Source: a virus
Direction: 5' to 3' (one strand)
IMG/VR virus record: IMGVR_UViG_3300047510_000744
Coordinates: 1-35,049 of that record
Length of the DNA: 35,049 nt
The notes under the pieces are model-generated. The model was given only the letters and a program-made list of their open reading frames with translations. It did not search any database and was not told the DNA's origin. Positions 17,441 to 34,398 of the stretch are shown one piece after another. The position numbers and the translations under genes were made by a program. Every line of letters begins with the position of its first letter. Positions within the stretch are counted from its first letter, which is position 1.

Positions 17441-20400
17441 ATGGGTCTAGAATTTAATGCCGATAAGGAATATCTAAAATCAGATAATCCACAATTAATT
17501 GGAAGCGAAAATATTATCTTTAGATCTGGCGCAGGTGCATCGGAAAAAGAAATTTTTCGTGCAAAACTTGATCCTGCCACAAATCTACCAAGATTAGGTG
17601 TTAATAGAACTGGAGATCGAGTAGATAAAGTTAATATAGTAAATCAAGGATCTGGTTATACAGCAGCTCCAACAGTTATTATAGGACCTCCAGATTCTTC
17701 AACAAATCCCGTTCAAGCAACTGGCAGTGCTCTACTTTCCAACGGAAGAGTGATTGGAGTACAAATTACAAATGGTGGTGGTGGATATACCACTGCTCCA
17801 TCAATTACTTTCCAAAATGCTGCTGGCGATACTACAGGTGGTGGAGCTCAAGGTACAACAGTATTAGATACTATTGAATATGAAATTGATGTAAATGGTG
17901 CTATTAGAACATCCACATCTATCATTTCCGATACTGCTAGAATTTTAAATCTAGATTTCCAAAATGTTGTTACTCCTAATTTTGATCTTCGTTCACCAAG
18001 ATTAAAAGTTTGGGATAATAGTTTTGGTCAGCAATGGACAGCAAATACATCTTTATCTAAAGGCGATTTTAGATATTACGAACAAAATGTTTACAGAGCA
18101 AAACAATCTGGTATCACTGGAACCAATCCACCTCTACATTTAACTGGTTCCGTAACAAACGGTAATCTTCAACTTGAGCATGTTGGTTATAGAGCAGACG
18201 ATGCTTTACTTCCTGGATATGATTCATTTAGTTGGCCTGAAAGTATTACACCTCCATTAGGAGATAATTCAAGTAAAATTGCTACTACAGAATATGTTCT
18301 AAACTTAGCAACAAATGACGTTGGTGGTCGTGTTTATGTTTCTCAACAAATTGGTGATGATGAAAATGACGGTAGATCACCCGCTTCTCCAGTAAGAACT
18401 ATTAAGCGTGGTTGCCAAATTGCAACTGAATCTAGGAACGTAAAAGAAACCGTTATAGTTGCTGGTGGAGATTATACGGAAGATAATCCAATTTCAATTC
18501 CACCAGATTGTGCTGTTGTAGGTGACTCGTTGCGTATTGTTTTGGTTAGACCAAACAATCCTGGCAAACACATGTTTAAGTTTGCCGATAAAAACTATAT
18601 TTCTGGTCTCACATTTAGAGATAAATTAGATTCTCAAGGAAATCCACTATCAACATGGCAGTTTGCTTGTGTATTTGATGATAAACAAAGAATTTATTAT
18701 GACTCTACTACTGGCGGAGACTTCAAAAGAAGATTCCCAGTTGGTCACCAAATTTTTGGAAAGAATAAATTCAGAGCAGATTTTGACTTTAATACAGGAT
18801 TATCATCGCTTTCTATTGGAGAAACAATTATCGGTGTAAACAGCACAGCAATTGGAACTGTAATTGCTGTTAATTATACATCAACAACCGGACCACAAGC
18901 ATACCAAAAGGGAACTGTAGATTTTGATATCGTATCAGGAAACTTTGCTAAAGGAGAAACAGTAAGATATTATATCGAAGCACCTGTAGAATATACTGGA
19001 TGGCCATCATCTCCTTCTATTGGAGATCCTTATACTCACCCTACTGATGGTGTTACTTACATATGGAATGGAACTGATTGGGCACAAGAGTTTCAATTTA
19101 CTGCCACGACACTGATATCAATTAGACCAGAAGGAGAAGTAGTAGAGCATGGAACTGATGTAACTACTACTGTTCCTATTATAAGAGTTGATGCTTCACA
19201 ACAGGCAACTTATGGTGGTCTCATTTTATATACAAATGAACTAGTAGGAATAGATAATATTCACGATTTCCATGAAGGAATGGAAATTTTTATATCTGGA
19301 ATGCCAGATGGATCTGTTCCAGGAGACCCAGATTTATCGTTCTTGAATGGATATCAAAGAATTTATGATTTAGATAAAACTGGTGTTCCAATTGATGATG
19401 ATAGCAGATCTAGAAGATTTGTTATTCCGAAAGATAATTTACCAAGTTTAACAGATTCTAATATTATAGTAGACGCTACTGCTTCCGCAGTATCGCATTA
19501 TGTTACTCTTTCGTTATTAAACTCACCAAATAAATTTGAAGAAACTCCATATGTTTCTAGAAGGTATCAAGATGCTCGTAATTTAATTAGAAACAATTTA
19601 GAGTTTATTAAAGACGAAACATATAAACAAATTATTGCTGAGTTTACTCATTTTATTAATCCTAGTGAATCAAAATGCCGTAGAGACATTGGGCATTTTG
19701 TCAATGCTATCATTAGAGATATGGAATATGGTGGGAACTATCACACCGTAGAAGCAGCAAAATATTATGTTATTGGAACTGGTATTGGATATATTGCAAC
19801 TGAATTATCGGAGACTGTTAGAGCGTTTGATATTGCTAGAGATCTAGCAGTTCTTGCTATGAGAGGTTGGAGAATTAATCAAGCAGGAGATTTATACAAC
19901 CCTCAATTCTCAACTATTGATAGATTTTTTGATCCAGATGTAACTATAGATTCATCTTGGCCATATTGTGCTAATGTTGAGGCAGCAATTAATACTCTTA
20001 CTGATTTATTCATTGCTATTATTACCAACAATCAAATAGATCGTTATGTTGAAGCTGGATATTTGATTGCTCGAAATCAAGATTTTATTATCCAAGAAAC
20101 TTCAAGATATATTGAAGATCAATATCCAGAACTTTTCTTGAGTGAAAATGCATCTGCTGCTAGATATAAAGATTCTACCAATTTGATTAGAAATAATAGA
20201 CAAGAAATTATTGATAGAGCTGCAGCAGAAATTGCAATTCAGCATCCTGATTTTTATTATCCTGGAGACGCTCAGACTACTAATACATCGAGATATAAAG
20301 ATTCTTATCGCTTAATTCAACTTAATAGACAAGAAATTATCGATAGAGCAGCTGCTGAAATTGCTGTTCAGCATCCTGATTTTTATTATCCTGGAGATGC

Positions 20401-23400
20401 CCAAACAACTAGTATTTCTAGATTCAAGGATTCATATCGTTTAATTCAATTAAACAGAGCAGCAATTATTGATACTGCTTATGCTGCATCTGGCGGTTCA
20501 ATCCCTGGGGATACTAATGGAGAAAAGTGTAAGCGAGACATTGGATATTTTATTGATGCGGTTTCTCTAGATATCGCTCAAGGTGCAGGAAATAGATATT
20601 CACGCAAATTTATTCAACAATATTTCAATCAAGCAGGAACTGCTTGGATTTCAAATGGATTGCAAGGTGAAGAAATTCAATCTAATTTAGCTTTTAATTC
20701 AGCTCGTGATGAGATGAAGAAAGCAATTACAAATCAACTAGGAGTTAAAGATTTAACTATTACTGCAGATCCTGCTACTGGTTCCAATACAAGCACTTCA
20801 TCTTGTGCAGATGTACAATCAGCAATCGATACCTTAACTGCTATTATTACTGCAAGAATTACTGCTGGCAACTTAACAGGTCTTCCCGCAGAAACAACAG
20901 GAACTGATCCTGCTGGCGAAGCAAAGTGTAAGCGTGATATTGGTCATTTCATTGATGCTGTTTCTCTAGATATTGTTCAGGGAGGAGGAAACAGATATTC
21001 TCGTAAATTTATTCAGCAGTATTTTGTTAATGCAACTACACCAATTTCCAATGGTTTGGTCGGAGAAGAAGCTCAGAGTGTAACTGCCTTCAATATGGCG
21101 AGAGACATGATGAACAAAGCTCTCACCAATCAACTATACACTAAAGATTTAACAATCAGTGCTGGTCCTGCTACTTATGGTGGTGGTGGTGGTAATATTG
21201 CTGTTCTTCCATCTGGAAATGCTGCTTCTTGCACAGATGTTCAAAGTGCAGTATCAAGTCTAACAACTTTAATCACTGATAGAATTACTGCTGGTAACTT
21301 AACAGGTCTGCCAGCAGAAACAACAGGAACTGTTCCTGCTGGCGAAGCAAAGTGTAAGCGTGATATTGGTTATATTGTAGATGCGGTTGCTTCAGACTTG
21401 TATGATGGAAGTAATGTTAATATCATTAGAGCTACAAAGAGATATTTCTTAGCGAATACTACTCCACTATCAAATGGTTTAGTTGGAGAAACGTCTCAGT
21501 CTGTAACTGCTTTCAATAAAGCAAGAGATATCATGAAGAGAGCTGTTACTAACCAGCTCTACTCTAAAGATCTCACAATCACTGGAGATCCAGATCCAGG
21601 AAACACCCCACCTCCATACGGAACAGAAGGGGTTACTACAAACAATACAAATGAACTTTCTTGCACAGATGTTCAGACTAGTATTTCTACATTAATTAGT
21701 GTTATCACAACTGCAATTTCTGCTGGCAATTTAAATTCACTACCAACTGAAAATACAGGTGATTTCTTAACTACCACTTCAATTAAATGCCGTAGAGATA
21801 TTGGTTATATCCTAGGAGCTTTAAGAAGAGATTTAATTCTCGGCGGTAACGCTGGAATAGTAACTGCTGGCGAATCATATTATACTGGAACTGCTTTAAC
21901 TGGTATTCCATCAAATGAATTAACTCCAACAAGAGAAGCATTCGTAAAAGCAAGAGATTTAGCAATCCTTGCTATGAGAAATTGGAATACTGGAAATGGT
22001 GCGTATTCTCAACCAGATTATGTTCCAGAATATGCAACAACTATTCAGTTTATTGATCCTACAGTAATTGAAGATACTTCAACTCCAACTTGTGCTAACG
22101 TTGCATCAGCAATTACAACTTCATTTGGTATTTTAGATAGTATTCTTGCTGACGGATCAACTCAAACAAAAACATATGGAACTTTATACGAACCAACGGT
22201 AACTTATCCAGAAAACACAATTTATGATGCCGACAATAAGAGAATAACTATTGAGTCTATCTGGGCAGATCTTCCATTCATCGAAGCATCTCCTTACATC
22301 CAAAACGCTTCTGTAATTTCATTCCTTGGTGGTGGTGGTTGTGAAATTGATGGTGATAAGATCCGTCAACCAAACTGCCCAAGACCAGGATTAAATCCAG
22401 CTGTTGGTAACAATGCTCCTAAAGCAACTTATCCAAATCAGGGTAAGTCGATGGTTGCTGCTCAGTTTACCATTATTTCTTTTGGGGGAATTGGATACAA
22501 AATTGTAAATGATGGTTATACTCAGTTAGTTTCGGTATTCGTTCTATTCGCTCAAGATGGTGTTTATGCTGATACTGGTGGTTATGCTTCCATTACCAAC
22601 TCAGCTACAAACTTTGGAACTTATGCTTTAAGAGCAAGAGGATTCAGAAAAGATCCATATGTCTTTGATATTGGAACAATTTCTAACGTAACTACCACTG
22701 CTACAGGTAGAACTGTATTTACAGTTGGTGGTCTTGGCAGAGAACCTCTCGAGCACTATATTGTTAAGTTTGCTGATTATGAAAATCAAGATTCCGAAAT
22801 TGAATACTTTGTTGAAAATGTAAGACAGACTTCTGCTGGTGCTACTGACATTACTTCTACTATCGATTTAAATGACGCTATCTTGATTCAAAGAAAATCA
22901 GATGGTCAACCAGTAGTTGTAAACAACGCAGAACTAGTCGGTAAGCAGATTCGTTTACACAGACCATCTATTGTTAACTCTTCATCGCATACTTGGGAAT
23001 ATGCTGGTTCTGGAAATGATTACAATGCTCTACCTGAAAATGGTGGAGTTAAAAACGAAGCACTAGAGCAGGTATCTCAAGCATATGGTAGAGTATACAC
23101 TTCAGGAACTGACGAACTTGGTGACTTTAAAGTAGGTTACTTCGCTAAGATTGAGAACAGAACTGGTAATATTACATTTACTGGAACGGTTTCTATCTCG
23201 GAAGTTGAATTCCTCAAACTAAAAGGTGGAGATGTTGTTGTTACGGGATTTGATGCTTCTAATACTTTAGGAGGAAACTTCTCGACAGATAGCAAGATTC
23301 CTACACAAAAAGCAGTTAAAGATTATATCTCAAACAACCTTGGTCAATATATTAATAAACCATATTCAACCAATGCTGTTCCAAGAAACCTTGTAGAATT

Positions 23401-26400
23401 AACAGACTCTGGTAAGATTTCTCTTGATCAAATTCCAGCATTAAGACCATTTAGTGTTTATACTATTGCCGATGAAGATGCTAGACTTGCTCTAGAAGGA
23501 CCTCTTGCTGGAGACATTGCAATTCAACAAGACACTTCACAATCATTTATCTTAAATAATGATTTAGATAGTCAATTTTTAGGTATTACTGTAAATGAAG
23601 ATTATGATTTCCCAGTTGGAGAATTAGTTGCTGGTAGTATTTCTACAGGTCAAGGTGAAATTACAGAATATAGATTTGGTGTTGTATATCAAATTAGTAT
23701 TACTGATCAAGGTGATGGTTATGATGCTCAAAATCCACCATCAGTTAGTTTCAGTGCTCCTCAACAAGCAGGTGGAGTTACTGTTGCTGCGTCGGCAACT
23801 ATTGCAAATAGCAAATTAGTCGCTATAACAATCGTTGAATATGATAATCTTGTTGGTGGTAAAGGTTATACTTCTGCTCCCACTGTAACAATTTCTGCTC
23901 CTGGAGCTGGTGGAACACAAGCAGAAGCAACTGCTCTGATTGAATCTAGAGTTTACACAAATATTGTTAATAATATTAAAATTACAGATACTGACAATAT
24001 TTCTGATTATGCTACTCCAACAAATAATGTTGCAGTAATAAGAACAGTAAATACTTCAGCAAGTGATCCAAATAACTGGGTATCTCTTTCATCAACCACA
24101 ACTCCAGTAACAAACTTAACTGGTCCTGGAACTATTTCTCCGAACCTTCTAGGCAGCAGTGGAAGTGCAAACTCAACTACTTTCTTACGAGGTGATTCTA
24201 CTTTTGCTCCTGCTGTTCAATCCATCAAGGCATCCGAAAATAGATATTTTGCTTATACTGCCGATCAAGCTGCTGCAAATCAAAATATTATACAAGTTCC
24301 ACTAAATTCTGCTATACTATTAGGTCATGTTGTAGTAGCAGATGGTATTCCAGCAGATACTACTGTTCAAAATACATTTGTTCAAGAAGGAAAAACAGTA
24401 ATAACATTATCTACTGCTATTACTCAAATCATACCTATAGATACTTTAATAGAATTTGTAAGACCAGCTTCTCCTGTTGTTATTAGTTCTACATTTACTC
24501 TTTCTGGTTTCATTGATACAGTATATGTTTCTGGTAGAGGAACAGGATATACAGATGGAACTTATTATGATGTTGCTCTAACTGGTGGTGTTGGAACTGG
24601 ATTGAAAGGAAATATTGTAGTATCAAGTGGTCAACTTCAAGAAGTAATTGTAACAAGTGGTGGAACTGGTTATACCAGTGACTTTTCAATCACTTCAATT
24701 CCTGCTGCAGTTGGTCCTGGAACAGGTGGAGTTTTAGAAGCAAAAGTAAATACTACTGTTAAAAACTTCTCTAATGTTGGGGTTGACATTTTACGTGTAG
24801 ACGACAAGACGCTTGCTGCTCAAGAATTTGGTAATGTTGGTGTTGCTAGATTCTTCAAATCACAATTTGAAATTGGTCTAGCGGGCAACGGTTCAGTCAA
24901 ACTAAAGACTGGTGCTGATAGTGGATTGGATGCTGACTTACTAGATGGTCAGCAAGGCAACTACTACCTAAATGGTCAAAACTTTGCTAACCTATCAATC
25001 ACTCCAGACAAACTTGCTAGCGGAACTTATGGTATTGACATTTCTGGTCAGTCGGGTAATACTTTAAGATTAACAACTAGCGTAGGAAACGCATCATCAT
25101 CTCCTTCGCCATCTACTTTCAACGAAGGTATCACAGCAGATACCAGAAACAATACTGCAGATGGATTATCCGATGGAGGAACAAAGCACGGTGTAATCAC
25201 TTACAGACAATTTGGAACTGGATCTGATTCTTCTGGTGGTGGTGTAAGACAACTTGCTTTCACTGATAATAACAATCTTTGGATTCGTGGATCTGGTTCT
25301 GGCGTTACTGGTGCATTTAGCACTTGGGCAAAACTATGGTCTTCAATCAACCAAGGTGCTGATAGTGGATTGGATGCTGACAAATTAGACGGAAGGCAAG
25401 GTGTTTTCTATCAAAATGCATTTAACATCAACAAAGGAAATATAGGTTCTAGTCATATTGCGACGTATCTAAGATCAACTGGATTTAATAATACTCTAAA
25501 AGTTTCTTCTTTTGTTGGTCAAGTTTTCTATGATGTATATGTTACTGGACAAGTTCTTTCAGAAGCTCCCTATGTAGAAAATGCAACCATTAATTTATAT
25601 GATACCTCTGGTATTGAAGTAGGTGAATTTGTAATTACATCAATTGTTACTAATAACAGTTTGGATGATGCTTTAGATTATACTATTTTAACTGGAAGAT
25701 TAACTGCAGGAAGTTTTAATAGTGCTGCCAAGATTGGAACACCATCAAATAATGTGTTTATTGCTGATTATAATATCACAGATATTATAAGCAATTCTAC
25801 GTATACTGTTGCAGAATTGGGTAATTTTGCTTCTAAACCTCTTCTCAAATTGGGAAGAACTGATGGAACTGCATCTAGCCCAGCAATTTATTTTAATTCT
25901 GCTTCTTCTCCAGCAACTTTTAACGTTAAGTTAGAAGCATCTGGCGGAACAGGAACAGAAGGTAGTGGTCTTTTAAATATTGTCGCAAATAATGCCAATG
26001 CAGTAACAATAAACAATAGCACTATTTGGAACTCTGGCAATATTCAGTTTGCTTCTGCAAATACAGCAAGCACAGCAGTTCAGAGAGATTCAAATGGAGA
26101 CTTCTCGGCAGGAACTATCACTGCTTCTCTAACAGGTGCTGCTTCTCTAAACGTATTGAAGTCTGGAGATACTATGTCAGGCAACCTGACATTCTCAGCA
26201 GGAAATGGTATTGTAATTAATACATCAGCAAATTCACTGGCAACTGGAACTGGTAACAGAAATCTAACTATTCTTAATGAAACTGGCGGTGCTGATGCTT
26301 ATCTAACCTTCCATGTTTCTGGTGACTATGCTGGTTACTTTGGATTAGATGGTTCAACTAATGATCTCTTCTGGGGTGGTTGGAGTGTTGGATCTTCCAC

Positions 26401-27583
26401 TAAGTATACTATTCTACATACTGGAAACAACCTACCAGCAACCACAAATACAGCAAATACTCTTGTTAAGAGAGATAGTAATGGAGACTTTGCTGCTGGA
26501 ACTATCACTGCTGCATTAAGTGGTAATGCTTCAACTGCAACGAAACTTCAAACTGCAAGACTAATCAATGGAACATCTTTTGATGGTTCTGCAAACATAA
26601 CTATCACATCAAATACTCCAAACTCTCTATCAGTTGGAACATATTTACAGTTTGGTGATGGATCTGGAACTCAATCATTTAATGGTGGTGCAGCAAGAAC
26701 TATCAACGTAATTGCTTCCACAAGTGGTAATACTAACTTGGTAGCCAGAGATGCAAGTGGTAACTTCTCAGCAGGAACTATCACTGCTACATTATCTGGA
26801 AATGCTTCAACTGCAACTAAAGCAACAAATATTGCTGGCGGTGCTTCTAATAATTTGGTATACCAGAGTGGAACTGATTCCACTTCGTTCTTGGCTGCAG
26901 GAACTGCAGGTTATTTCCTCAAGCAAGGATCAACTGCTCCCGAATGGACCGCTTTCCCAATTGGAGGAAGCAATCAAGAAATTCAGTATAATAACAATGG
27001 TGCTTTAGCTGCTTCTGCTCAATTTAAGTTTGAAAGTGCAACACATTCTATTGTTCGTCTTGGTGATGCTGCATCATTACGTCAAACATCTAATGCTACC
27101 TTAGGATCAGTTGGTGCATCTGAAGGTCTCATTCAATATCATAGCAACCGTTGGTATGTAAATGTAGGATCAAGTGGTGCTGAAGTTGTAAGATTTAGAG
27201 CTGGAACTACTGATGTTGCTTGGATCGGAACAGGAGGAGCATTTAATTGTAATGGTGCTATTACCGCTGGCGGTGATATTACAGCATTCTCATCGTCAGA
27301 TAATAGATTAAAAACTAATATCGAACCAATTGAAAATGCTCTAAATAAAGTTGGTAAGATCTCTGGTGTAACCTATAATTGGAATGAGAAAGCGGAAGAT
27401 AAAGATCAAACAAAGAGAGAATCTGGTGTAATTGCTCAAGAAATTCTTGAGGTATTGCCAGAGGTCGTTGTTGAAAGAGATAATGGTTACCTAGCAGTTC
27501 AATATGAACGTTTGATTCCTCTACTTATCGAAGCTATTAAAGAATTAAAACAAGAAGTAGAAACTCTAAAGGCAAGTAAGTAA
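17441..27583 (+). CDS. Giant tail fibre/tailspike with S74 intramolecular chaperone
   Basis: 3380 residues. In order: two GxGY modules (about 67-127); a carbohydrate-binding-like module with 'GDFRYYEQNVYRAK' (about 190-248); 'KIATTEYVLNL' fibre motif (about 280); start of a right-handed beta-helix with 'YVSQQIGDDENDGRSPASPV' (about 299); a helical region (about 700-1580) with 43-residue repeats and five Cys-paired units; resumption of beta-helix-like sequence ('GGIGYKIVNDGYTQLVSVFV', about 1680); 'IPTQKAVKDYI' (about 1952); GxGY modules; two 'GADSGLDAD.LDG' fibre motifs (about 2491 and 2638); three 'RDS.G.F.AGTITA.LSGNAS' repeats; and a terminal peptidase S74 domain. It probably trimerises as a receptor-binding fibre. 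The start follows GGATAG at 17430-17435, 5 bases from the ATG. The next gene starts one base after its stop. Confidence 0.9.
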   Translation: MGLEFNADKEYLKSDNPQLIGSENIIFRSGAGASEKEIFRAKLDPATNLPRLGVNRTGDRVDKVNIVNQGSGYTAAPTVIIGPPDSSTNPVQATGSALLSNGRVIGVQITNGGGGYTTAPSITFQNAAGDTTGGGAQGTTVLDTIEYEIDVNGAIRTSTSIISDTARILNLDFQNVVTPNFDLRSPRLKVWDNSFGQQWTANTSLSKGDFRYYEQNVYRAKQSGITGTNPPLHLTGSVTNGNLQLEHVGYRADDALLPGYDSFSWPESITPPLGDNSSKIATTEYVLNLATNDVGGRVYVSQQIGDDENDGRSPASPVRTIKRGCQIATESRNVKETVIVAGGDYTEDNPISIPPDCAVVGDSLRIVLVRPNNPGKHMFKFADKNYISGLTFRDKLDSQGNPLSTWQFACVFDDKQRIYYDSTTGGDFKRRFPVGHQIFGKNKFRADFDFNTGLSSLSIGETIIGVNSTAIGTVIAVNYTSTTGPQAYQKGTVDFDIVSGNFAKGETVRYYIEAPVEYTGWPSSPSIGDPYTHPTDGVTYIWNGTDWAQEFQFTATTLISIRPEGEVVEHGTDVTTTVPIIRVDASQQATYGGLILYTNELVGIDNIHDFHEGMEIFISGMPDGSVPGDPDLSFLNGYQRIYDLDKTGVPIDDDSRSRRFVIPKDNLPSLTDSNIIVDATASAVSHYVTLSLLNSPNKFEETPYVSRRYQDARNLIRNNLEFIKDETYKQIIAEFTHFINPSESKCRRDIGHFVNAIIRDMEYGGNYHTVEAAKYYVIGTGIGYIATELSETVRAFDIARDLAVLAMRGWRINQAGDLYNPQFSTIDRFFDPDVTIDSSWPYCANVEAAINTLTDLFIAIITNNQIDRYVEAGYLIARNQDFIIQETSRYIEDQYPELFLSENASAARYKDSTNLIRNNRQEIIDRAAAEIAIQHPDFYYPGDAQTTNTSRYKDSYRLIQLNRQEIIDRAAAEIAVQHPDFYYPGDAQTTSISRFKDSYRLIQLNRAAIIDTAYAASGGSIPGDTNGEKCKRDIGYFIDAVSLDIAQGAGNRYSRKFIQQYFNQAGTAWISNGLQGEEIQSNLAFNSARDEMKKAITNQLGVKDLTITADPATGSNTSTSSCADVQSAIDTLTAIITARITAGNLTGLPAETTGTDPAGEAKCKRDIGHFIDAVSLDIVQGGGNRYSRKFIQQYFVNATTPISNGLVGEEAQSVTAFNMARDMMNKALTNQLYTKDLTISAGPATYGGGGGNIAVLPSGNAASCTDVQSAVSSLTTLITDRITAGNLTGLPAETTGTVPAGEAKCKRDIGYIVDAVASDLYDGSNVNIIRATKRYFLANTTPLSNGLVGETSQSVTAFNKARDIMKRAVTNQLYSKDLTITGDPDPGNTPPPYGTEGVTTNNTNELSCTDVQTSISTLISVITTAISAGNLNSLPTENTGDFLTTTSIKCRRDIGYILGALRRDLILGGNAGIVTAGESYYTGTALTGIPSNELTPTREAFVKARDLAILAMRNWNTGNGAYSQPDYVPEYATTIQFIDPTVIEDTSTPTCANVASAITTSFGILDSILADGSTQTKTYGTLYEPTVTYPENTIYDADNKRITIESIWADLPFIEASPYIQNASVISFLGGGGCEIDGDKIRQPNCPRPGLNPAVGNNAPKATYPNQGKSMVAAQFTIISFGGIGYKIVNDGYTQLVSVFVLFAQDGVYADTGGYASITNSATNFGTYALRARGFRKDPYVFDIGTISNVTTTATGRTVFTVGGLGREPLEHYIVKFADYENQDSEIEYFVENVRQTSAGATDITSTIDLNDAILIQRKSDGQPVVVNNAELVGKQIRLHRPSIVNSSSHTWEYAGSGNDYNALPENGGVKNEALEQVSQAYGRVYTSGTDELGDFKVGYFAKIENRTGNITFTGTVSISEVEFLKLKGGDVVVTGFDASNTLGGNFSTDSKIPTQKAVKDYISNNLGQYINKPYSTNAVPRNLVELTDSGKISLDQIPALRPFSVYTIADEDARLALEGPLAGDIAIQQDTSQSFILNNDLDSQFLGITVNEDYDFPVGELVAGSISTGQGEITEYRFGVVYQISITDQGDGYDAQNPPSVSFSAPQQAGGVTVAASATIANSKLVAITIVEYDNLVGGKGYTSAPTVTISAPGAGGTQAEATALIESRVYTNIVNNIKITDTDNISDYATPTNNVAVIRTVNTSASDPNNWVSLSSTTTPVTNLTGPGTISPNLLGSSGSANSTTFLRGDSTFAPAVQSIKASENRYFAYTADQAAANQNIIQVPLNSAILLGHVVVADGIPADTTVQNTFVQEGKTVITLSTAITQIIPIDTLIEFVRPASPVVISSTFTLSGFIDTVYVSGRGTGYTDGTYYDVALTGGVGTGLKGNIVVSSGQLQEVIVTSGGTGYTSDFSITSIPAAVGPGTGGVLEAKVNTTVKNFSNVGVDILRVDDKTLAAQEFGNVGVARFFKSQFEIGLAGNGSVKLKTGADSGLDADLLDGQQGNYYLNGQNFANLSITPDKLASGTYGIDISGQSGNTLRLTTSVGNASSSPSPSTFNEGITADTRNNTADGLSDGGTKHGVITYRQFGTGSDSSGGGVRQLAFTDNNNLWIRGSGSGVTGAFSTWAKLWSSINQGADSGLDADKLDGRQGVFYQNAFNINKGNIGSSHIATYLRSTGFNNTLKVSSFVGQVFYDVYVTGQVLSEAPYVENATINLYDTSGIEVGEFVITSIVTNNSLDDALDYTILTGRLTAGSFNSAAKIGTPSNNVFIADYNITDIISNSTYTVAELGNFASKPLLKLGRTDGTASSPAIYFNSASSPATFNVKLEASGGTGTEGSGLLNIVANNANAVTINNSTIWNSGNIQFASANTASTAVQRDSNGDFSAGTITASLTGAASLNVLKSGDTMSGNLTFSAGNGIVINTSANSLATGTGNRNLTILNETGGADAYLTFHVSGDYAGYFGLDGSTNDLFWGGWSVGSSTKYTILHTGNNLPATTNTANTLVKRDSNGDFAAGTITAALSGNASTATKLQTARLINGTSFDGSANITITSNTPNSLSVGTYLQFGDGSGTQSFNGGAARTINVIASTSGNTNLVARDASGNFSAGTITATLSGNASTATKATNIAGGASNNLVYQSGTDSTSFLAAGTAGYFLKQGSTAPEWTAFPIGGSNQEIQYNNNGALAASAQFKFESATHSIVRLGDAASLRQTSNATLGSVGASEGLIQYHSNRWYVNVGSSGAEVVRFRAGTTDVAWIGTGGAFNCNGAITAGGDITAFSSSDNRLKTNIEPIENALNKVGKISGVTYNWNEKAEDKDQTKRESGVIAQEILEVLPEVVVERDNGYLAVQYERLIPLLIEAIKELKQEVETLKASK
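19676..22093 (+). repeat. Five-unit Cys-paired helical repeat array
   Basis: Within the giant fibre the motif K-C-[KR]-R-D-I-G occurs five times, with its Cys at residues 746, 1030, 1163, 1305 and 1450. Each is followed by C-[AT]-[DN]-V at residues 843, 1122, 1264, 1408 and 1551, so the cysteines are 92-103 residues apart in every unit. Units three and four are nearly identical in DNA around 'ctgctggcgaagcaaagtgt' (20910-20929 and 21336-21355, offset 426 bases), pointing to recent duplication or gene conversion. Confidence 0.9.
20162..20470 (+). repeat. 43-residue (129-bp) tandem helical repeats
   Basis: Copies begin at 20162, 20291 and 20420, exactly 129 bases apart. The unit reads 'R[YF]KDS..LI..NRQEIIDRA' followed by 'QHPDFYYPGDAQTT'. 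The third copy diverges after 'NRAAIID' and runs into a Cys-paired unit. A related single copy ('RRYQDARNLIRNN', about residue 707) precedes the first Cys-paired unit. Confidence 0.9.
27296..27313 (+). other. Predicted S74 self-cleavage site in the giant fibre
   Basis: The residues S-D-N-R-L-K occupy 3286-3291. Peptidase S74 domains (endosialidase-type intramolecular chaperones) use a Ser and a Lys five residues later as catalytic dyad and cleave just before that Ser. Ser3286 and Lys3291 fit. Cleavage would release a 95-residue C-terminal chaperone that ends in a coiled coil ('IEAIKELKQEVETLK'). Confidence 0.8.
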
Positions 27584-27584: not shown

Positions 27585-29108
27585 ATGGCAGTAAATAATA
27601 ACACTACCAAATACTTTAGTGGAAATGTATCGATTAGTTTATCTCAACTGAGAGATACATTCAGAGGAAATACTGGAGCAGTATCTCTTAGTGAATTTAA
27701 AAGAAAAACAACAGATACAACATCGGCACCATACATTTATGATGCTACTGAAAATGCTAATGTTCCTACATCAGACTCAAATCTAGCATTTAGTAAGTAT
27801 AGAGATACTGTAAAAGAGATTGTTTTAACACAATCAGATACTAATGAAGATGTAAGTGTAGATTCTTTTACAACTCAATGGAATAGTAATTTCGGTAAAG
27901 TAATTCCCAAAAAATTTGAAGTTACTGGAACTTGTGGTGCAACATCCACGGCAAATGCAGCACTAACAGTTAATTCAAATCTTTCTGGAAAATTAAAAGT
28001 ATCATTGTCTTCTAATGGTAAAATATATGGTCAGGGGGGAACTGGTGGAGCAACCCCTGGCGGAGCAGGGAATCCTGGTGGAAATGCTATTTTAATATCT
28101 CAGAATGGAGTTACTGTAGAAGGAACTGCTGGAGAAATAAGGGGAGGTGGCGGCGGTGGTGCAGGCGGTAATCCTGGGCAAGCTGGAGGTCAAGGTCAAG
28201 CAGGTCAAACAGGAATTGCTGGTCAACCTGGAGGTGCTGGGGGTCAAGGGCAGGCAGGTCAAACAGGAACTGCTGGAGGAGCTGGAGCAACTAACAATGT
28301 TACGTGGTTTGGGCAAGGAGATGAAACATGGAACCGAAACTGTGCTGCCAATACTCCAATTGGTAATGCAAATGCCCGAGGAATTGCAAATAGAAACAGA
28401 AATATTGGAACTGTTCGTGGCGTCGGTGGTCCTGGTGGCGTCGGTGGTCCTGGAGGAGCTGCTGGTCAAGGTGGTCCTGGTGGTTCTGGTGGCGTCGGTG
28501 GTCCTGGAGGAGCTGCTGGTCAAGGCGGTGCTGGAGGCGCTGGAGGGAATGGAGGAAGAGGTAGAGGTTATGGATATTTAATTGGCGTTTTAACAGGTAA
28601 TGCTGGTGGTGCTGGTGGTGCTGGCAACCCTGGCGGTGCTGCTCCAAATACTTGGCCAGGGTCTGCTGGGCAACCTGGGCAAGCTGGCAACCCTGGCGGT
28701 GCTGCTCCAAATACTTGGCCAAGTCAAAATGGTGCAGCTGGTCAAACAGAAAGTAGAAACTTAAATATTAATTATAGAGTCGGTGGAAGAAGAAATAACA
28801 ACTCAGCAAACTGCGTAAGAGTTGCTAGAAACCAAACATTTACTGCTACTGGAGGAACTGGAGCAGCTGGAGGAAGAGGTAATGCTGGAACTGCAGGGCA
28901 AACAGGGCAAACAGGTCAATCTGGCGGAAGAGGTAATGCTGGAACTGCGGGGCAAACAGGTCAAGATGGAAACAGCGGTGGAAGTGGTGGAGATTGGGGA
29001 ACTGCTGCTTCTGGTAATGCTGGAGCAGCAATAAAAAGATCAAATACAACTAACATTAATTATACTCTCTCATTTAACGGAACTACATCTGGATCAACTA
29101 CTGCATGA
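27585..29108 (+). CDS. Glycine-rich tip adhesin (gp38-like)
   Basis: 507 residues. The N terminus has paired 'SLSQLRDTF' and 'VSLSEFKRK' motifs (about 16-43), seen in other phage tail and adhesin proteins. A compact beta-type segment follows, and residues about 148-480 are extremely glycine-rich with GGxGG, GxPGG and GQxGQ phrases. Three less glycine-rich interruptions lie at about 236-278 (with Trp and Cys), 325-338 ('GRGYGYLIGVL') and 389-421. In the gp38 adhesins of T2-type phages and Salmonella phage S16, such blocks form stacked polyglycine-II helices that present variable loops to the receptor. The interruptions are the likely counterparts here. It starts one base after the giant fibre's stop, as expected for a fibre-tip protein. 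Similarity to gp38 is by composition and position, not alignment. Confidence 0.75.
   Translation: MAVNNNTTKYFSGNVSISLSQLRDTFRGNTGAVSLSEFKRKTTDTTSAPYIYDATENANVPTSDSNLAFSKYRDTVKEIVLTQSDTNEDVSVDSFTTQWNSNFGKVIPKKFEVTGTCGATSTANAALTVNSNLSGKLKVSLSSNGKIYGQGGTGGATPGGAGNPGGNAILISQNGVTVEGTAGEIRGGGGGGAGGNPGQAGGQGQAGQTGIAGQPGGAGGQGQAGQTGTAGGAGATNNVTWFGQGDETWNRNCAANTPIGNANARGIANRNRNIGTVRGVGGPGGVGGPGGAAGQGGPGGSGGVGGPGGAAGQGGAGGAGGNGGRGRGYGYLIGVLTGNAGGAGGAGNPGGAAPNTWPGSAGQPGQAGNPGGAAPNTWPSQNGAAGQTESRNLNINYRVGGRRNNNSANCVRVARNQTFTATGGTGAAGGRGNAGTAGQTGQTGQSGGRGNAGTAGQTGQDGNSGGSGGDWGTAASGNAGAAIKRSNTTNINYTLSFNGTTSGSTTA
28188..28985 (+). repeat. Triplet-register repeats in the glycine-rich adhesin
   Basis: Four duplicated blocks: 'GQGQAGQTG' with copies at 28188 and 28242 (offset 54); 'GVGGPGGAAGQGG' with DNA copies at 28432 and 28486 (offset 54); 'GNPGGAAPNTWP' with a 38-base identical copy at 28621 and 28684 (offset 63); and 'GRGNAGTAGQTGQ' with copies at 28872 and 28926 (offset 54). 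All offsets are multiples of nine bases (18 or 21 residues), consistent with a structure of three residues per turn. Confidence 0.85.
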
Positions 29109-29114
29109 TAAATA
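29107..29114 (+). promoter_or_regulatory. Late promoter-like motif before the dioxygenase cluster
   Basis: GATAAATA, seven of eight bases of the T4 late element, overlaps the TGA stop of the adhesin and precedes the first dioxygenase start by 21 bases. Placement on a stop codon matches the motifs at 31592 and 34794. Confidence 0.5.
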
Positions 29115-29135
29115 ATATTACAAAGCATAAAAAAT

Positions 29136-29771
29136 ATGAAACTGATTGAACATATAGGAATTTTTGAAGACTATGTTGATAGAGAATTTTGTGATAAATT
29201 AATTGATTATTTTGAAGAACTTATTTCATCAAAATCTATCTTTACATCAGAAAATCCAGAAGAACCTTTGACAGAAGCACAACAAATTTTAAGAGAAGGT
29301 GCTTATTCTGATGGAACTGAACAATTCAGTAAAATGAGATTGGGTAGGTTAGATGAATCTATTTTCTTAAATTTACTAGATGGTAGATTTGCTGGAGAGT
29401 TATATTCTGTTTTGCAGTCAACATTTAACGAATATGTGAGAGAATATCCAACTCTAACAGATGCAAAAATTGCTACGTATGATTTAAAGATGCAAAAAAC
29501 TCCTCCTGGCGGAGGATATCATGTTTGGCATGACGAAAGATGTCAATGGGGTGTTGATCATCGTCAAGTAGTTTGGATGATATATTTAAATGATATGCCC
29601 GAGGGAGAAGCAGAGACTGAATTTTATTACCAAAAATTGAGAATAACACCAAAAGCAGGAACAGTGGTATTATGGCCAGCTGCATATACACATGTTCATA
29701 GGGGAAATATAGTATTCTCGCAAAACAAGTACGTTGTTACTGGATGGTTCTGCACGCAACCACAAGATTAA
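29136..29771 (+). CDS. 2-oxoglutarate/Fe(II) dioxygenase-like protein 1
   Basis: 211 residues. The double-stranded beta-helix core is recognisable by 'PPGGGYHVWHDE' with a metal-binding H-x-E at His132 and Glu134, then 'VVWMIYLND', and a distal 'YTHVHRGN' with His186/His188. 'NKYVVTGWF' follows, in the usual place for the 2-oxoglutarate-binding strand. This version (GGGYHVWH...THVHRG) is a type I recognise from T4-like cyanophages. The family couples decarboxylation of 2-oxoglutarate to hydroxylation of a protein or small molecule. The substrate here is unknown. Position directly after the adhesin suggests action on a virion protein. No strong Shine-Dalgarno is visible before ATG 29136. One base separates it from the next gene. 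Confidence 0.85.
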   Translation: MKLIEHIGIFEDYVDREFCDKLIDYFEELISSKSIFTSENPEEPLTEAQQILREGAYSDGTEQFSKMRLGRLDESIFLNLLDGRFAGELYSVLQSTFNEYVREYPTLTDAKIATYDLKMQKTPPGGGYHVWHDERCQWGVDHRQVVWMIYLNDMPEGEAETEFYYQKLRITPKAGTVVLWPAAYTHVHRGNIVFSQNKYVVTGWFCTQPQD

Positions 29772-29772
29772 T

Positions 29773-30357
29773 ATGATTACATATACTAATGTAGATGATG
29801 ATATTCACATTATAGATAATATTTTTTCGCACAAAGAAGTATCTGATATACAAAATTACGCAGAAAATAAAAATAACTATTCTATTTGTGGAGATGCTTC
29901 TCAACGAATATACACATTTGCTGCTACAGATTTACTAGAAAATTTTGATGATCATCAAAAAAATATTTTAAATAAAATTGAAGATCGATTGAATTTAAAA
30001 TTACCAAAATTTAATAGAGTTATAACTAATTGTTTTGGTATAAATGATTTTTGTGATATGCATGTAGACGATCCAGATATGCATGGAGTTACTTTTTTAC
30101 TTTACTGTAATAAAGAATGGCATAATCATTGGTCGGGAGAAACATATTTTTCAGCAGAAAAAGATTACATTTATGCAACATCTATTTTACCAAAACCAGG
30201 AAGAGTAGTAATATCTCCATCATATATACATCATGGAAGTAGAGCACCTTCACAATTTATAAGGTGCAAGGGAAGAATTACGATGGCATTTCAATCTTCT
30301 TCCGATATCTCAGAAAAATGGTATGAAAAAAATAAACAAAATTTGAAATTATTATGA
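29773..30357 (+). CDS. 2-oxoglutarate/Fe(II) dioxygenase-like protein 2
   Basis: 194 residues from ATG 29773. A longer version from 29734 would overlap the upstream gene by 38 bases and add 13 residues without family character, so the later start, one base after the previous stop, is preferred. Metal motif H-x-D at His97 and Asp99 ('CDMHVDDP'), then 'HGVTFLLYCN', distal His153/His154 in 'SYIHHGSRAP', and Arg168 in 'GRITMAF' as the likely 2-oxoglutarate ligand. The protein is poorly alignable to its neighbours outside these motifs. It ends with an ATGA overlap to the next gene. Substrate unknown. Confidence 0.78.
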   Translation: MITYTNVDDDIHIIDNIFSHKEVSDIQNYAENKNNYSICGDASQRIYTFAATDLLENFDDHQKNILNKIEDRLNLKLPKFNRVITNCFGINDFCDMHVDDPDMHGVTFLLYCNKEWHNHWSGETYFSAEKDYIYATSILPKPGRVVISPSYIHHGSRAPSQFIRCKGRITMAFQSSSDISEKWYEKNKQNLKLL

Positions 30358-30947
30358 CTTTAAAATTAAACACAATAACTCAAAAATATGAGTGCGTTTG
30401 GCATTTTACCAAATTACCAGAAGAATTTTGCAATTCTATAGAAAATGATTTGAATAAGTATATTTCAGAAGATTCATTAAGATACGGAACAGTTGGATCT
30501 GATAACGTATTAAATGAAAAAATACGAAAAAATAAAATTTGTTTTTTTGATGATAATCATTGGGTTGCTGCTTTCATTCATTTTTATATAATGAAATCTA
30601 ATGAAGAAAATTTTAATTATGATATAACATCTTTTCAAGATAACTGTTTGCAATATACTTCATATGAAGAAGGAGAATATTATAATTGGCATGTAGATGG
30701 ATCTGTTATTTCTCCCACTGGAAAACAAAGGAAATTATCGTTCTCCCTACAATTATCAGATCCATCAGAATACGAAGGAGGAGATTTGCAGTTTTTGGAT
30801 GTTGAACAAAACAGTATGTTTTTTGCTCCAAAAGAAAGAGGAACATTAATTATATTTGATAGCAGAATAAAACATAGAGTAAAAAAAATCAAAAAAGGAA
30901 AAAGAAAATCTATAGTTGGATGGATTGAAGGACCTAGATGGAAATGA
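30354..30947 (+). CDS. 2-oxoglutarate/Fe(II) dioxygenase 3, PKHD/prolyl-hydroxylase type
   Basis: 197 residues, the most canonical of the four. Motifs: 'YYNWHVDG' with His113 and Asp115; 'RKLSFSLQLSDPSEYEGGDL', the typical strand and turn of PKHD-type and prolyl 4-hydroxylase-like enzymes; 'GTLIIFDSRIKHRV' with distal His174; and 'GKRKSIVGWIEGP' with Arg184 to bind 2-oxoglutarate. Enzymes of this group hydroxylate prolyl or lysyl residues in proteins, so it is the best candidate to act on a proline-containing virion protein. The start overlaps the upstream stop (ATGA at 30354-30357). The A-run-rich 3' end is notably AT-rich. Confidence 0.9.
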   Translation: MTLKLNTITQKYECVWHFTKLPEEFCNSIENDLNKYISEDSLRYGTVGSDNVLNEKIRKNKICFFDDNHWVAAFIHFYIMKSNEENFNYDITSFQDNCLQYTSYEEGEYYNWHVDGSVISPTGKQRKLSFSLQLSDPSEYEGGDLQFLDVEQNSMFFAPKERGTLIIFDSRIKHRVKKIKKGKRKSIVGWIEGPRWK

Positions 30948-31600
30948 AAAATTTACCTATATTAATAGAAGATTCTCTATTTGATGTCAACAAAAATATT
31001 CACATCAATGTAAAAACACCTTCGTGGGGAAATTACATAGAGGTAGATAATTTTTTTGTAAATTTTAAAAAAATTCATGAAATAGCACTTACTATGCCAT
31101 GCACAAGATTACATGGAATGTATGATGTTAAAGAAAATGGTCAAGATTATTTTGATGGTAGATCTTATTTCTATTTTCATAAAACTGTTTTATTTCACGA
31201 TGTTGTAAAAGATATCATAGAAAAAGTATATAATGTAAAAAATTTAACTGAACAAACACTTAATCTAGGTAATAACATTTTTACTTGGAATCAAACATGT
31301 TATGATAACAACAAAAATAATGGTTATTCTCCCCATAGTGATGGAGAAAATATTGTAGCTTGTTTATGGTATATGAATGAAGAATATGATGAAGAAGATG
31401 GAACTGGAATATATGCAAAACCTTCGTTATATTCTAAACAAAGCCCATGGATTCCTAATGACACTTTGGTTGACGTTATACAAGCAAAACCAAATAGATT
31501 AGTAATCTATGATGGAGATGTATATCATGCTGCTAAAGTAGGAAAGAGATGGATTAGTGATATCCGTCATAGTATGGTTCATTTTTTAACGTATAAATAA
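30938..31600 (+). CDS. 2-oxoglutarate/Fe(II) dioxygenase-like protein 4
   Basis: 220 residues from ATG 30938, which has AGGA five bases upstream. A second ATG at 30944 forms ATGA with the previous stop and would give 218 residues, so both starts are possible. Using the first: 'GYSPHSDGEN' gives His133 and Asp135; 'VACLWYMNE' is the core strand; 'NRLVIYDGDVYHAAKVG' gives distal His197; and 'DIRHSMVHFLTY' gives Arg210. The layout resembles DUF6445-type oxygenase-like proteins. Substrate unknown. The gene ends in a late promoter motif that overlaps its stop codon. Confidence 0.82.
   Translation: MEMKNLPILIEDSLFDVNKNIHINVKTPSWGNYIEVDNFFVNFKKIHEIALTMPCTRLHGMYDVKENGQDYFDGRSYFYFHKTVLFHDVVKDIIEKVYNVKNLTEQTLNLGNNIFTWNQTCYDNNKNNGYSPHSDGENIVACLWYMNEEYDEEDGTGIYAKPSLYSKQSPWIPNDTLVDVIQAKPNRLVIYDGDVYHAAKVGKRWISDIRHSMVHFLTYK
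31592..31599 (+). promoter_or_regulatory. T4-type late promoter motif
   Basis: Exact TATAAATA overlapping the TAA stop (31598-31600) of dioxygenase 4 and 29 bases before the ATG of the small acidic protein gene. Confidence 0.7.
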
Positions 31601-31628: not shown

Positions 31629-31823
31629 ATGAACACTGAAGAACTGAAGAAAAATTTTGAAGATCAACTAGCATCTGCAGAAAAGCAAATTGCTGAATTA
31701 GAAGCAAATCTTGCTAAAGCAAAAGAGTATAAAATTAAACTGCAAGGTGGTTTAGAGACTTTGGCTATTCTAAATCCACCAGCGGAAGAAGAAGCACCAG
31801 CAGAAGAAGCACCTGCTGAGTGA
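31629..31823 (+). CDS. Small acidic coiled-coil protein
   Basis: 64 residues. Residues about 4-45 have a heptad pattern rich in Glu, Lys, Leu and Ala ('FEDQLASAEKQIAELEANLA'), predicted as one coiled coil. The tail is low complexity and acidic ('EEEAPAEEAPAE'). It has its own late promoter (31592) and ends just before a hairpin terminator, so it probably forms a one-gene transcript. I recall a comparable small protein immediately upstream of gp13 in T4-like cyanophages. A chaperone or minor virion role is possible, but nothing in the sequence decides it. GAGA at 31622-31625 is a weak ribosome site. Confidence 0.8.
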   Translation: MNTEELKKNFEDQLASAEKQIAELEANLAKAKEYKIKLQGGLETLAILNPPAEEEAPAEEAPAE

Positions 31824-31886: not shown

Positions 31887-32699
31887 ATGTCAGCATCAAA
31901 GCCAGCAACCAGAGAGGAGTTAAAGCAATACTGCCTCCGAGAGTTGGGCGCACCAGTTTTAGAAATCAACGTAGATAGTCAGCAGTTAGAAGACCGTATC
32001 GATGAAGCTCTGCAGTTCTTCCAAGAGCGTCATTTCGACGGTGCTGAGAGAATGTATCTGAAACATACTCTGACACAAACAGAGGTAACTCGTTTCAAAT
32101 CTAATAACATTACTCACACTGCACCTAATGGCGATACGTGGACAGAAAGAGGAAATTATTTAGAATTACCAGATTATATTATTGGCATCGAAAGAATTTT
32201 TGGTGTTACGTCAAGCAGCATTCGTGGTGACTTGTTTGGTATTGAATATCAGATCTTCCTCAACGACCTTTATGCGTTTGGATCAATTGACATTCTAAAC
32301 TACTATATGGTCAAACAGTATATCGAAACGCTCGATATGGTTCTGAATACTGGTTCATTGATTCAGTATAGGTTCACCAAGCGTAACGGTAAACTCTATA
32401 TTGACTATGATCCTGCGATGCTAACAAAAGATAAGATTCTTATTATCGATTGCTACAGAGCACTTGATCCCACAAATCTCACGAAGATCTGGAATGACTT
32501 CTGGTTGAAGCGTTATACTACGGCGTTATTCAAGCGTCAGTGGGGGCAGAACCTCATCAAGTTTAATAACGTTCAACTACCTGGCGGTGTATCACTCAAC
32601 GGTCGCCAGATCTATGAGGATGCTCTCAGAGAGATTGCAGAGATCGAAGATAAGATGATTTCTGATTACGAACTACCACCACTTGATGTAATCGGATAA
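31887..32699 (+). CDS. gp13: Neck protein gp13
   Basis: 270 residues (T4 gp13 is 309). The N terminus 'TREELKQYCLRELGAPVLEI' and the following 'QQLEDRIDEALQFFQERHFD' are characteristic of gp13 in T4-like cyanophages. The middle has 'DYIIGIERIFGV' and 'LNDLYAFGSIDILNYYM'. gp13 joins gp14 to form the head-completion neck that connects packaged head and tail. Start: ATG 31887 with AGGG six bases upstream, just after the hairpin. Its TAA overlaps the gp14 ATG (TAATG), which suggests translational coupling. Codon use and GC are visibly higher than in the dioxygenase cluster. Confidence 0.93.
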   Translation: MSASKPATREELKQYCLRELGAPVLEINVDSQQLEDRIDEALQFFQERHFDGAERMYLKHTLTQTEVTRFKSNNITHTAPNGDTWTERGNYLELPDYIIGIERIFGVTSSSIRGDLFGIEYQIFLNDLYAFGSIDILNYYMVKQYIETLDMVLNTGSLIQYRFTKRNGKLYIDYDPAMLTKDKILIIDCYRALDPTNLTKIWNDFWLKRYTTALFKRQWGQNLIKFNNVQLPGGVSLNGRQIYEDALREIAEIEDKMISDYELPPLDVIG

Positions 32700-33601
32700 T
32701 GGCAAAGAGTCAATACTTTCCCCAGTATGGCGGAAACACAGCAGAACAAACATTAGTTCAAGATCTTGTTGACGAGCAGATCAAACTGTTTGGGCAGGAT
32801 GTGATGTATGTTCCAAAAACAATGTTAATTGATAAGACTTTAAACGATGTAATTCTTTCAAAGTTTGAAGACAAGGTAACCATCGAAATGATGCTTATTA
32901 ATGTTGAGGGATTTGGTGGTTCTGGTGCCGTGGCGATGTCTAAGTTTGGTCTAAGACTAAGCGATGAGATTACATATGCTGTATCCAAAAGAAGATGGAT
33001 CAACTACGTAGAGACAGAGATTGACACAAGAGTTCCCAACAGACCAAACGAAGGTGATCTTCTTTATGTTCCAATGACAAAAAATCTATACGAGATTAAG
33101 TTTGTTGAAAGGGAAGTTCCATTTTATCAGTTAGGAAAAAACTATATTTTTTCATTGACTTGCGAACTCATTGAGAACGCAGACAACTACTTTAATACGG
33201 GAGATCCTCTCATTGATGATCTCACTCAGGAATCTCATGTCTTCCCAGTATACATGAAGACAGGTGGTTCTGGTGTTTATGAACCAGGAGAGATTGTAGA
33301 ACAAACTTATAATGTTGATGGCGATCCTGTTACTGTAACTGCTACTGTTGCAGACTGGGATCCTGCTACACGCAAGTTGAGATTGACATATATAAATGGA
33401 GTATTATCACCGAACAATCCTATAATAGGAGAAGATAGTGGTGCTGAGTGGATAGTGGATACATTCTCTACAATTGATTTTGATATTGATAATTATGATA
33501 ATGCACAAAATAAAATTTTTGAAGAAACAGCAGACGAGATACTAGATTTCACAGAAACAAATCCATTTGGTGAATATGGAGATATGGAGGATTCATTCTA
33601 A
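32699..33601 (+). CDS. gp14: Neck protein gp14
   Basis: 300 residues (T4 gp14 is 256). Matches placed by eye: 'YVPKTM' (T4 'YVPREY'), 'NEGDLLYVPMTKNLYEIKFV' (T4 '[20 protein letters not shown]') and 'PFYQLGKN' (T4 'PFYQLGQN'), plus a short acidic C terminus. The extra length is a segment at about residues 199-255 ('YEPGEIVEQTY...GEDSGAEWIVDTF') that looks like the SGA module found in the baseplate and fibre genes of this window. gp14 completes the neck with gp13. It starts within the gp13 stop (TAATG) and ends within the gp15 start (TAATG). Confidence 0.94.
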   Translation: MAKSQYFPQYGGNTAEQTLVQDLVDEQIKLFGQDVMYVPKTMLIDKTLNDVILSKFEDKVTIEMMLINVEGFGGSGAVAMSKFGLRLSDEITYAVSKRRWINYVETEIDTRVPNRPNEGDLLYVPMTKNLYEIKFVEREVPFYQLGKNYIFSLTCELIENADNYFNTGDPLIDDLTQESHVFPVYMKTGGSGVYEPGEIVEQTYNVDGDPVTVTATVADWDPATRKLRLTYINGVLSPNNPIIGEDSGAEWIVDTFSTIDFDIDNYDNAQNKIFEETADEILDFTETNPFGEYGDMEDSF

Positions 33602-34398
33602 TGTTAGGCAATTCACATTTTTATCACGAAATTATCAAAAAGAATGTAAAAGCATTTGGAACAATTTTTAATAATATTCAAATTGAAAGAAAAGATCCAG
33701 ATACAGGAGCAATCATTCGTCAAGAAAAAGTAGCACTTGCTTACGGACCAAAAAGTAAGTTCCTTGCACGTTTAGATCAAGATCCAAGCACTGAGCGTAA
33801 AGTTAGTATTACTATGCCTCGCATCTCTTTTGAGATGACTGAGATATCTTACGATCCAACAAGAAAAACTTCACCAATACAAAAATACTTTAAACAAGAC
33901 GGCAACGAAACTAGAGTTCAGTATATGCCAGTTCCATATAATTTAAGATTTGAACTAGGTATTTTATCTAAGAATCAGGATGATGCTTTACAAATACTTG
34001 AGCAAATTCTTCCTTATTTCCAACCATCATTTAACGTAACAGTTAATCTTATTCCAGAAATGGATGAGAAAAAAGATTTGCCAATTATATTGAATGGTAT
34101 TAATTACGAAGATGATTACGAAGATGATATGCTTCGTAGAAGAAGTATAACATATACATTAGATTTTATTTTAAAAACCTATCTATACGGACCAGTTTCT
34201 GATGCAGCTTTAATTCGTAAAGCAACAGTATTTGAGTCTCTTGGTGATTTTAATCAACACAAAAGAGTTCTTAAATATGAAGTATCGCCTGCAGCAAAAG
34301 AAGATTTAAATGATGATGATGTCATAGATTCTGCAGATGATGCATTAATTATGCCAGATGATGACTTTGGATTTAATGAAGGTATCGAACTACTATGA
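33601..34398 (+). CDS. gp15: Tail sheath stabiliser / tail terminator gp15
   Basis: 265 residues (T4 gp15 is 272). Conserved points: 'FGTIFNNIQI' (T4 'MGDLFSNIQI'), 'MPRISFEM' (T4 'LPRINLHL'), 'EQILPYFQPSFN' (T4 'EQILPYFQPHFN') and 'RRRSITYTLDF' (T4 'RRRIEWSLTF'). It forms a hexamer at the top of the tail, ends tail tube and sheath growth, and binds the neck. The C terminus (last about 35 residues) is strongly acidic. It is coupled to gp14 (TAATG) and to gp16 (ATGA at 34395-34398). Confidence 0.95.
   Translation: MLGNSHFYHEIIKKNVKAFGTIFNNIQIERKDPDTGAIIRQEKVALAYGPKSKFLARLDQDPSTERKVSITMPRISFEMTEISYDPTRKTSPIQKYFKQDGNETRVQYMPVPYNLRFELGILSKNQDDALQILEQILPYFQPSFNVTVNLIPEMDEKKDLPIILNGINYEDDYEDDMLRRRSITYTLDFILKTYLYGPVSDAALIRKATVFESLGDFNQHKRVLKYEVSPAAKEDLNDDDVIDSADDALIMPDDDFGFNEGIELL

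Follow-up and report, generated by a model that had tools for sequence, protein, structure and literature searches.

In the structures of gp38 and of Pam3 gp24, glycine-rich strands are arranged in a layered lattice whose variable loops point toward the receptor (PMC9608196), and phage oxygenases of PHROG 61 structurally resemble the human prolyl hydroxylase EGLN3 (PMC12774648). 2-Oxoglutarate (2OG) oxygenases, frequent but unexplained in marine cyanophages, have so far been read as acting in DNA repair, metabolism or signaling. Here we describe a 35 kb contig of viral DNA from a T4-like phage (IMG/VR record IMGVR_UViG_3300047510_000744, positions 1 to 35,049; this whole stretch of 35,049 nucleotides is referred to as the window), in which the gene of a glycine-rich adhesin is followed by four genes for putative Fe(II)/2OG oxygenases. 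We read this cluster, with a probability of roughly 0.6, as an adhesin-tailoring cassette whose enzymes would hydroxylate the adhesin, and the recurrence of this pairing in many marine phages suggests, short of proof, that the phage alters the chemistry of the tip with which it binds its receptor.

Four oxygenases behind a gp38-type adhesin

The adhesin gene (27585..29108; + strand, like all genes of the window named here) encodes 507 residues and is followed after 27 bases by the first oxygenase, open reading frame (ORF) 1 (29136..29771), and then, at intervals of 1, -4 and -10 bases, by ORF2 (29773..30357), ORF3 (30354..30947) and ORF4 (30938..31600); for ORF2 a TTG start at 29734 is open in addition to the ATG at 29773. 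The cluster that the first-pass annotation of this DNA had read from the letters is confirmed, the four oxygenase ORFs are intact, and the same cluster is present on a second contig (L008), which argues against an assembly artifact. A six-frame search of the contig returned PF13640 matches for exactly the four downstream ORFs. ORF1, ORF2 and ORF3 pass this family (2OG-FeII_Oxy_3; 8.1e-10, 1.7e-6 and 2.1e-16, respectively), while ORF4 stays below its cut-off (1.5e-4) and passes DUF6445 (PF20043) alone, with 24.9 bits against a cut-off of 24; the ORF4 orthologue in the related contig L163 matches PF20043 at 6.9e-9. For the oxygenases, PHROGs assignments (phrog_61, 1.7e-41, for ORF1; phrog_274, 8.2e-18, for ORF2) broadly agree with Pfam. 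The labels 'DNA endonuclease V', 'ferrochelatase' and 'minor coat protein' of phrog_274, phrog_3531 and phrog_1644, which concern 29773-30357 and 30938-31600 of the window and recur in GenBank cyanophage records, sit on apparent 2OG oxygenases and look wrong.

All four proteins carry the 2-His-1-carboxylate motif HxD/E...H, which is kept in diverged orthologues. It takes the form HxE...H...K in ORF1 (H132, E134, H188, K198; in the alignments the lysine lies 10 residues past the distal histidine), HxD...H...R in ORF2 (H110, D112, H167, R181, numbered from the TTG start and invariant in the alignment) and in ORF3 (H113, D115, H174, R184; catalytic residues invariant in the family), and HxD...H in ORF4 (H133, D135, H197), where R210 is found only in close orthologues. 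The 2OG-binding residues K198, R181 and R184 are each invariant within their own families. This is the pattern that had been noted earlier, namely the motif in all four genes and a distal arginine in three, the remaining enzyme, ORF1, having the lysine. The PKHD signature claimed for the third gene was likewise borne out, as the nearest solved relatives of ORF3 are PKHD-type hydroxylases (3dkq, Sbal_3634, E = 1e-7; PiuC, about 1e-4). ORF2 matched a solved 'putative hydroxylase' (9blq, E 6e-4) and ORF1 gave a weak match to the prolyl 4-hydroxylase 5c5t (E 0.008, below usual significance); for ORF4, the sequence search of solved structures yielded no match to characterised prolyl or PKHD-type hydroxylases. 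A modest structure model of ORF4 resembled Fe/2OG dioxygenases in almost every top match (best E 4.7e-3), with no match at E below 0.001 in the fold search. Taken together, ORF1 to ORF4 are predicted to be four real Fe(II)/2OG oxygenases with intact active sites, ORF3 being of the PKHD/prolyl-hydroxylase type and ORF4 a divergent oxygenase-like protein.

A tree of 107 proteins combined ORF1 to ORF4 with the 2OG enzymes encoded by 14 cyanophages. ORF1 and ORF3 belong to distinct groups with good support (99/89 and 98/91), ORF2 clusters elsewhere (95/86), and the long branch of ORF4 attaches only loosely near ORF2. The earlier view of four mutually diverged enzymes, rather than a simple duplication, is thus upheld, since their positions in separate parts of the tree show that they are not local tandem duplicates; these positions would also fit distinct targets better than copy number. 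ORF1, ORF2 and ORF3 each have relatives that adjoin fiber genes in other phages.

The adhesin itself has an N-terminal part (residues 1-150) and a C-terminal part in which three Gly-X-Y tracts of exactly 16 triplets each (residues 189-236, 279-326 and 423-470) alternate with loops. Its N-terminal and central parts match phrog_2056 (1.3e-7) and phrog_10745 (1.3e-6), two families that also match gp38 of phages S16 and T2, its conserved core IYGxGGTGG...GNPGG...IxGGGGGG is common to gp38, and the local alignment of its first 180 residues with gp38 scored above 200 shuffles. By these sequence criteria, the receptor-binding domain of the adhesin is homologous to T-even gp38. Even at E up to 1, the window adhesin had no listed match to PF05268 (GP38) or PF21721 (Gp38_N), both of which match S16 and T2 gp38, and it is therefore named gp38-type and not gp38. 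The first-pass annotation had called the protein collagen-like: the Gly-X-Y tracts are real, but collagen is a poor family label because the Pfam Collagen score of 14.9 bits lies below the cut-off of 27.2, and the protein is closer to the receptor-binding domain of gp38. When the adhesin profile was compared with solved structures, the matches were true collagens by composition, which was not taken as homology. The protein is a gp38-type tip protein whose Gly-X-Y domain is enlarged, and not an ordinary collagen.

Single-protein scans of viral contigs gave few relatives, and alignments were needed. Three IMG/VR contigs (L163, L165 and L166) share with the window the identical order of fiber, adhesin, ORF1 to ORF4, small ORF, gp13, gp14 and gp15. 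Their fibers are 69-72% identical to that of the window, and local identities amount to 49-54% for the adhesin, 52-54% for ORF1, 39-41% for ORF2, 50-52% for ORF3 and 42-45% for ORF4. The iron-binding and catalytic residues are all unchanged at pairwise identities of 36-52%, the nonsynonymous substitution rate (dN) is below the synonymous rate (dS) in every pair with a usable dS value, and the glycine register of the adhesin tracts is largely kept. The fiber and cassette of L163 are closer to those of L165 and L166 than to the window, whereas its gp14 and gp15 are closer to the window, a single event that is weakly consistent with exchange of the fiber-cassette block as a unit.

Linkage to glycine-rich proteins

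Since cyanophages are rich in 2OG enzymes, the specificity of this pairing was tested. The 14 cyanophage genomes contain 22 Gly-rich genes, defined as encoding a stretch with at least 35 glycines per 100 residues, and for 82% of these an oxygenase is encoded no further than 5 kb away, compared to 28% expected (0/1000 gene-order rotations). Large non-Gly-rich genes were found near an oxygenase at chance frequency (30% vs. 30% expected, n=228), so it is the Gly-rich class that carries the proximity signal. Among de-replicated IMG/VR loci, a Gly-rich ORF was present within 5 kb at 47 of 69 loci of the ORF3 family and 30 of 69 of the ORF1 family, but at none of 41 loci of a replication-linked oxygenase family that was built from the same cyanophage genomes and served as control (Fisher p = 2e-14 and 6e-8 for the ORF3 and ORF1 families, respectively); with full flanks only, the counts were 31/35, 14/19 and 0/11, all these linkage numbers being inflated by the partial relatedness of the sampled genomes. 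ORF1 to ORF4 all fall outside the control clade (SCAM8_137k, SSSM5_143k, ACG2014b_138k and relatives) in the tree. The ORF1 and ORF3 enzyme families are specifically linked to Gly-rich proteins. Co-occurrence of adhesins and oxygenases, which had been proposed earlier as a check on their association, is hence a specific and replicated link, accompanied by conservation of the whole cassette in three relatives, and the converse proposition that such oxygenases occur independently of Gly-rich adhesins is true of the control family but not of the ORF1 and ORF3 families. Oxygenase-fiber cassettes without Gly-rich adhesins exist as well: in S-SCSM1 (L014:76-2029) several oxygenases, with a 'minor coat protein' in between, stand just before fiber genes that are not strongly Gly-rich.

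Prolyl 4-hydroxylases prefer X-Pro-Gly, and proline in the Y position stabilizes triple helices mainly when it is hydroxylated. In the tracts of the four cassette adhesins, 38 prolines are found in Y, i.e. before glycine, and 9 in X, a bias shared by proteins of L197, L229 and L238, while collagen-stalk proteins such as that of L311 have proline in X. Across 182 Gly-rich proteins, the presence of an ORF3-family enzyme predicts an additional 5.0 points of proline in the Gly-rich domain; the effect is +3.6 (p = 0.04) after collapse to 48 homology clusters and +4.4 (p = 0.001) within halogenase-seeded loci. As residue evidence for proline as the target this is only suggestive and is offered as a lead. 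A link of the ORF1 family with aspartate content was gone after homology clustering and is not claimed. Long Gly-X-Y stalk proteins of two kinds occur on marine phage contigs (L176, L207, L220, L228, L311), one with GxQ-type repeats of up to 66 triplets and the other with collagen-like GPS/GPQ repeats, in which proline is placed almost only in X, opposite to the adhesins.

In marine phages, flavin halogenases of the PrnA type also adjoin Gly-rich adhesins and 2OG oxygenases (L009:10229-16391; L011:12445-15026; L404-L483). Of 68 nonredundant halogenase loci, 37 have a Gly-rich ORF nearby (19/24 when flanks are complete) and 58 have an oxygenase no more than 5 kb away; in the cyanophage set, five of eight halogenases stand beside Gly-rich proteins, with about one expected. 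Synechococcus phage Sf-CH11, which grows on strain WH8102, has such an arrangement: a halogenase gene flanked on either side by a pair of 2OG genes, the whole lying between genes of two Gly-rich proteins. The Gly-rich proteins linked to halogenases are rich in histidine (4.7% vs. about 1%). These associations suggest the Gly-rich adhesin as a candidate native substrate of phage halogenases.

Upstream of the cassette, the giant tail-fiber protein (17441..27583; 3380 residues) ends in a C-terminal Peptidase_S74 chaperone (PF13884, 2.2e-18) and is the positional equivalent of T-even gp37, S16 and T2 having the order gp37-gp38. Its segment at 17441-22000 contains repeats of a Cys-containing unit (CKRDIG...DAV...) and gave a whole-protein match to Pfam Phycobilisome (8.4e-11) with no single significant stretch, which is possibly spurious. 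Between the cassette and gp13, a small coiled-coil-like ORF of 64 residues (31629..31823; phrog_580, 1.2e-19) shows the highest conservation among the products of this segment (78-84% identity to its counterparts in L163, L165 and L166) and possibly stands outside the system. The neck and tail genes gp13, gp14 and gp15 (31887..34398; gp13 phrog_211, 2.5e-47) form the conserved right-hand border of the cassette; the gp13-gp16 region has about 65% DNA identity to marine Synechococcus phages, the cyanophage DNA matches being annotated as gp13-gp16.

Proposed tailoring of the tip and alternative explanations

In the mechanism that we propose, the giant fiber would carry the gp38-type tip, the receptor-binding part of which would be a lattice of stacked Gly-X-Y (polyglycine-II-like) strands with variable loops between them. 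While late genes are expressed, and before assembly, the four oxygenases would hydroxylate side chains of the adhesin, and perhaps also of the fiber, each acting on a different residue or context. ORF3 would most likely act on prolines in X-Pro-Gly, and the cassette probably includes a prolyl hydroxylase. Hydroxylation may tune the packing and stability of the Gly-rich lattice, the surface chemistry facing the receptor, or both.

Several observations speak against this interpretation. T2 and S16 have gp38 adhesins but no PF13640 protein at all (T4, too, has no PF13640 match), and oxidation is therefore not needed for the gp38 fold in general. The 14 cyanophage genomes contain 105 2OG genes, many of them away from Gly-rich genes, and about 70% of the extended oxygenase set lies more than 5 kb from such genes. 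When all oxygenases were set against ORFs of 900 residues or more, whatever their composition, proximity was weak (40% vs. 27%, 38/2000) and was dropped as a main argument. The window adhesin alone shows little proline bias (5 in Y vs. 4 in X), the proline signal is weaker after homology clustering, and proline was one of several residues tested, with permutations that take no account of remaining relatedness. Finally, the predicted adhesin structure is unusable (predicted local distance difference test score, pLDDT, of 35), and no structural claim is based on it.

Among the alternatives, the one that survives best, although we consider it unlikely, is that the oxygenases act on the host surface or on small molecules through oxidation of glycans, lipids or metabolites, blocking superinfection or aiding entry, and that their site is explained by gene exchange in the host-recognition region. 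In pelagimyophages, glycosyltransferases believed to change the host surface do occur in host-recognition clusters (PMC7029224), 2OG enzymes act on small molecules too, and the weak structural matches of ORF4 include the small-molecule dioxygenases TlxI and SptF; such a role, however, does not predict that the enzymes would specifically favor Gly-rich proteins over the broader class of large structural ones, nor that enzyme family would covary with adhesin composition. The host-recognition cluster is known to form a hypervariable island (PMC7029224), and oxygenase-fiber proximity in general is modest, as would be expected if the cassette were a hotspot in which enzyme and adhesin hitch-hike without a functional tie. 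Given that order and all four enzymes are kept with intact active sites in three diverged relatives, and that neither the control oxygenase family nor large non-Gly-rich genes show the association, we regard hitch-hiking as slightly more unlikely still. For Syn9, 2OG genes adjoining UvsX and UvsY led to the proposal that AlkB-like enzymes repair DNA or demethylate nucleic acids (PMC2984593, PMC3037559). Such a role would be in line with an ORF1-clade member in S-CAM8 that adjoins clamp-loader genes, but is rendered very improbable by the separation of the replication-linked control clade from all four ORFs, by its lack of Gly-rich neighbors at all 41 nonredundant loci and by the nearest solved relatives of ORF3, none of which is AlkB. 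Least probable of all is a modulation of host 2OG and NtcA nitrogen signaling through 2OG consumption, a role suggested in the literature for the 2OG enzymes of cyanophages at large (PMC3037559), because bulk consumption does not call for four different active-site lineages, each conserved in its own right and kept next to an adhesin, and leaves the family-specific linkage unexplained. The two published explanations, DNA repair and 2OG signaling, thus account poorly for the locus and its linkage.

Beyond adhesin tailoring in the window, which remains our preferred interpretation, marine T4-like phages may run a modular form of it, in which recombination brings Gly-rich adhesins together with sets of diverged 2OG oxygenases and, in certain lineages, with flavin halogenases as well; we hold this tentatively, at somewhat less than even odds, and the same applies to its corollary that hydroxylation and halogenation are put on the receptor-binding tip and that the adhesin is the native substrate of the halogenases too. 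If so, host recognition would vary chemically as well as by sequence, and phage halogenases would gain a candidate natural substrate. A defined subset of the 2OG oxygenases, if it modifies adhesins, would become candidate host-range determinants. Phage 2OG enzymes resembling prolyl hydroxylases (PMC12774648) and Gly-rich phage tips are already known separately. In the literature searched, which covered few subscription papers, we found neither a report of enzymatic modification of phage receptor-binding proteins nor a proposal joining prolyl-hydroxylase-like phage 2OG enzymes with Gly-rich tips, and protein hydroxylases dedicated to a phage receptor-binding protein apparently represent the new element here.

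Comparison with known systems

Similar to T-even gp38 (S16, T2; PF05268, phrog_2056), the window adhesin is encoded directly after the distal fiber gene, and the two have profile families and the IYGxGGTGG...GGNPGG...GGGGGG core in common. The window adhesin, however, is about twice as long, has three 16-triplet Gly-X-Y tracts and a different N-terminal domain, is not recognized by PF05268 and, unlike gp38 of T2 and S16, is followed by oxygenases. The tail fiber gp24 of the myocyanophage Pam3 likewise presents a Gly-rich lattice as its receptor-facing tip, with 39% glycine and 12 Gly-rich motifs, and the main text of its description contains no mention of a hydroxylase or of 'hydroxyl' (PMC9608196). 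The cyanophage flavin halogenases (PrnA-like, with VirX1 as characterised member) belong to the same type of cassette, with Gly-rich adhesins and 2OG enzymes, but differ in chemistry from the enzymes of the window, in which none was seen. ORF1 can be aligned weakly with 5c5t, which we take to be the chlorella-virus collagen prolyl 4-hydroxylase; its lysine 10 residues after the distal histidine is the collagen prolyl 4-hydroxylase arrangement, whereas it has HxE instead of HxD. The catalytic domain of ORF3 resembles that of the PKHD-type prolyl and lysyl hydroxylases Sbal_3634 (3dkq) and PiuC, with which ORF3 shares HxD...H...R, and from which it differs in being encoded in a four-enzyme cassette together with an adhesin.

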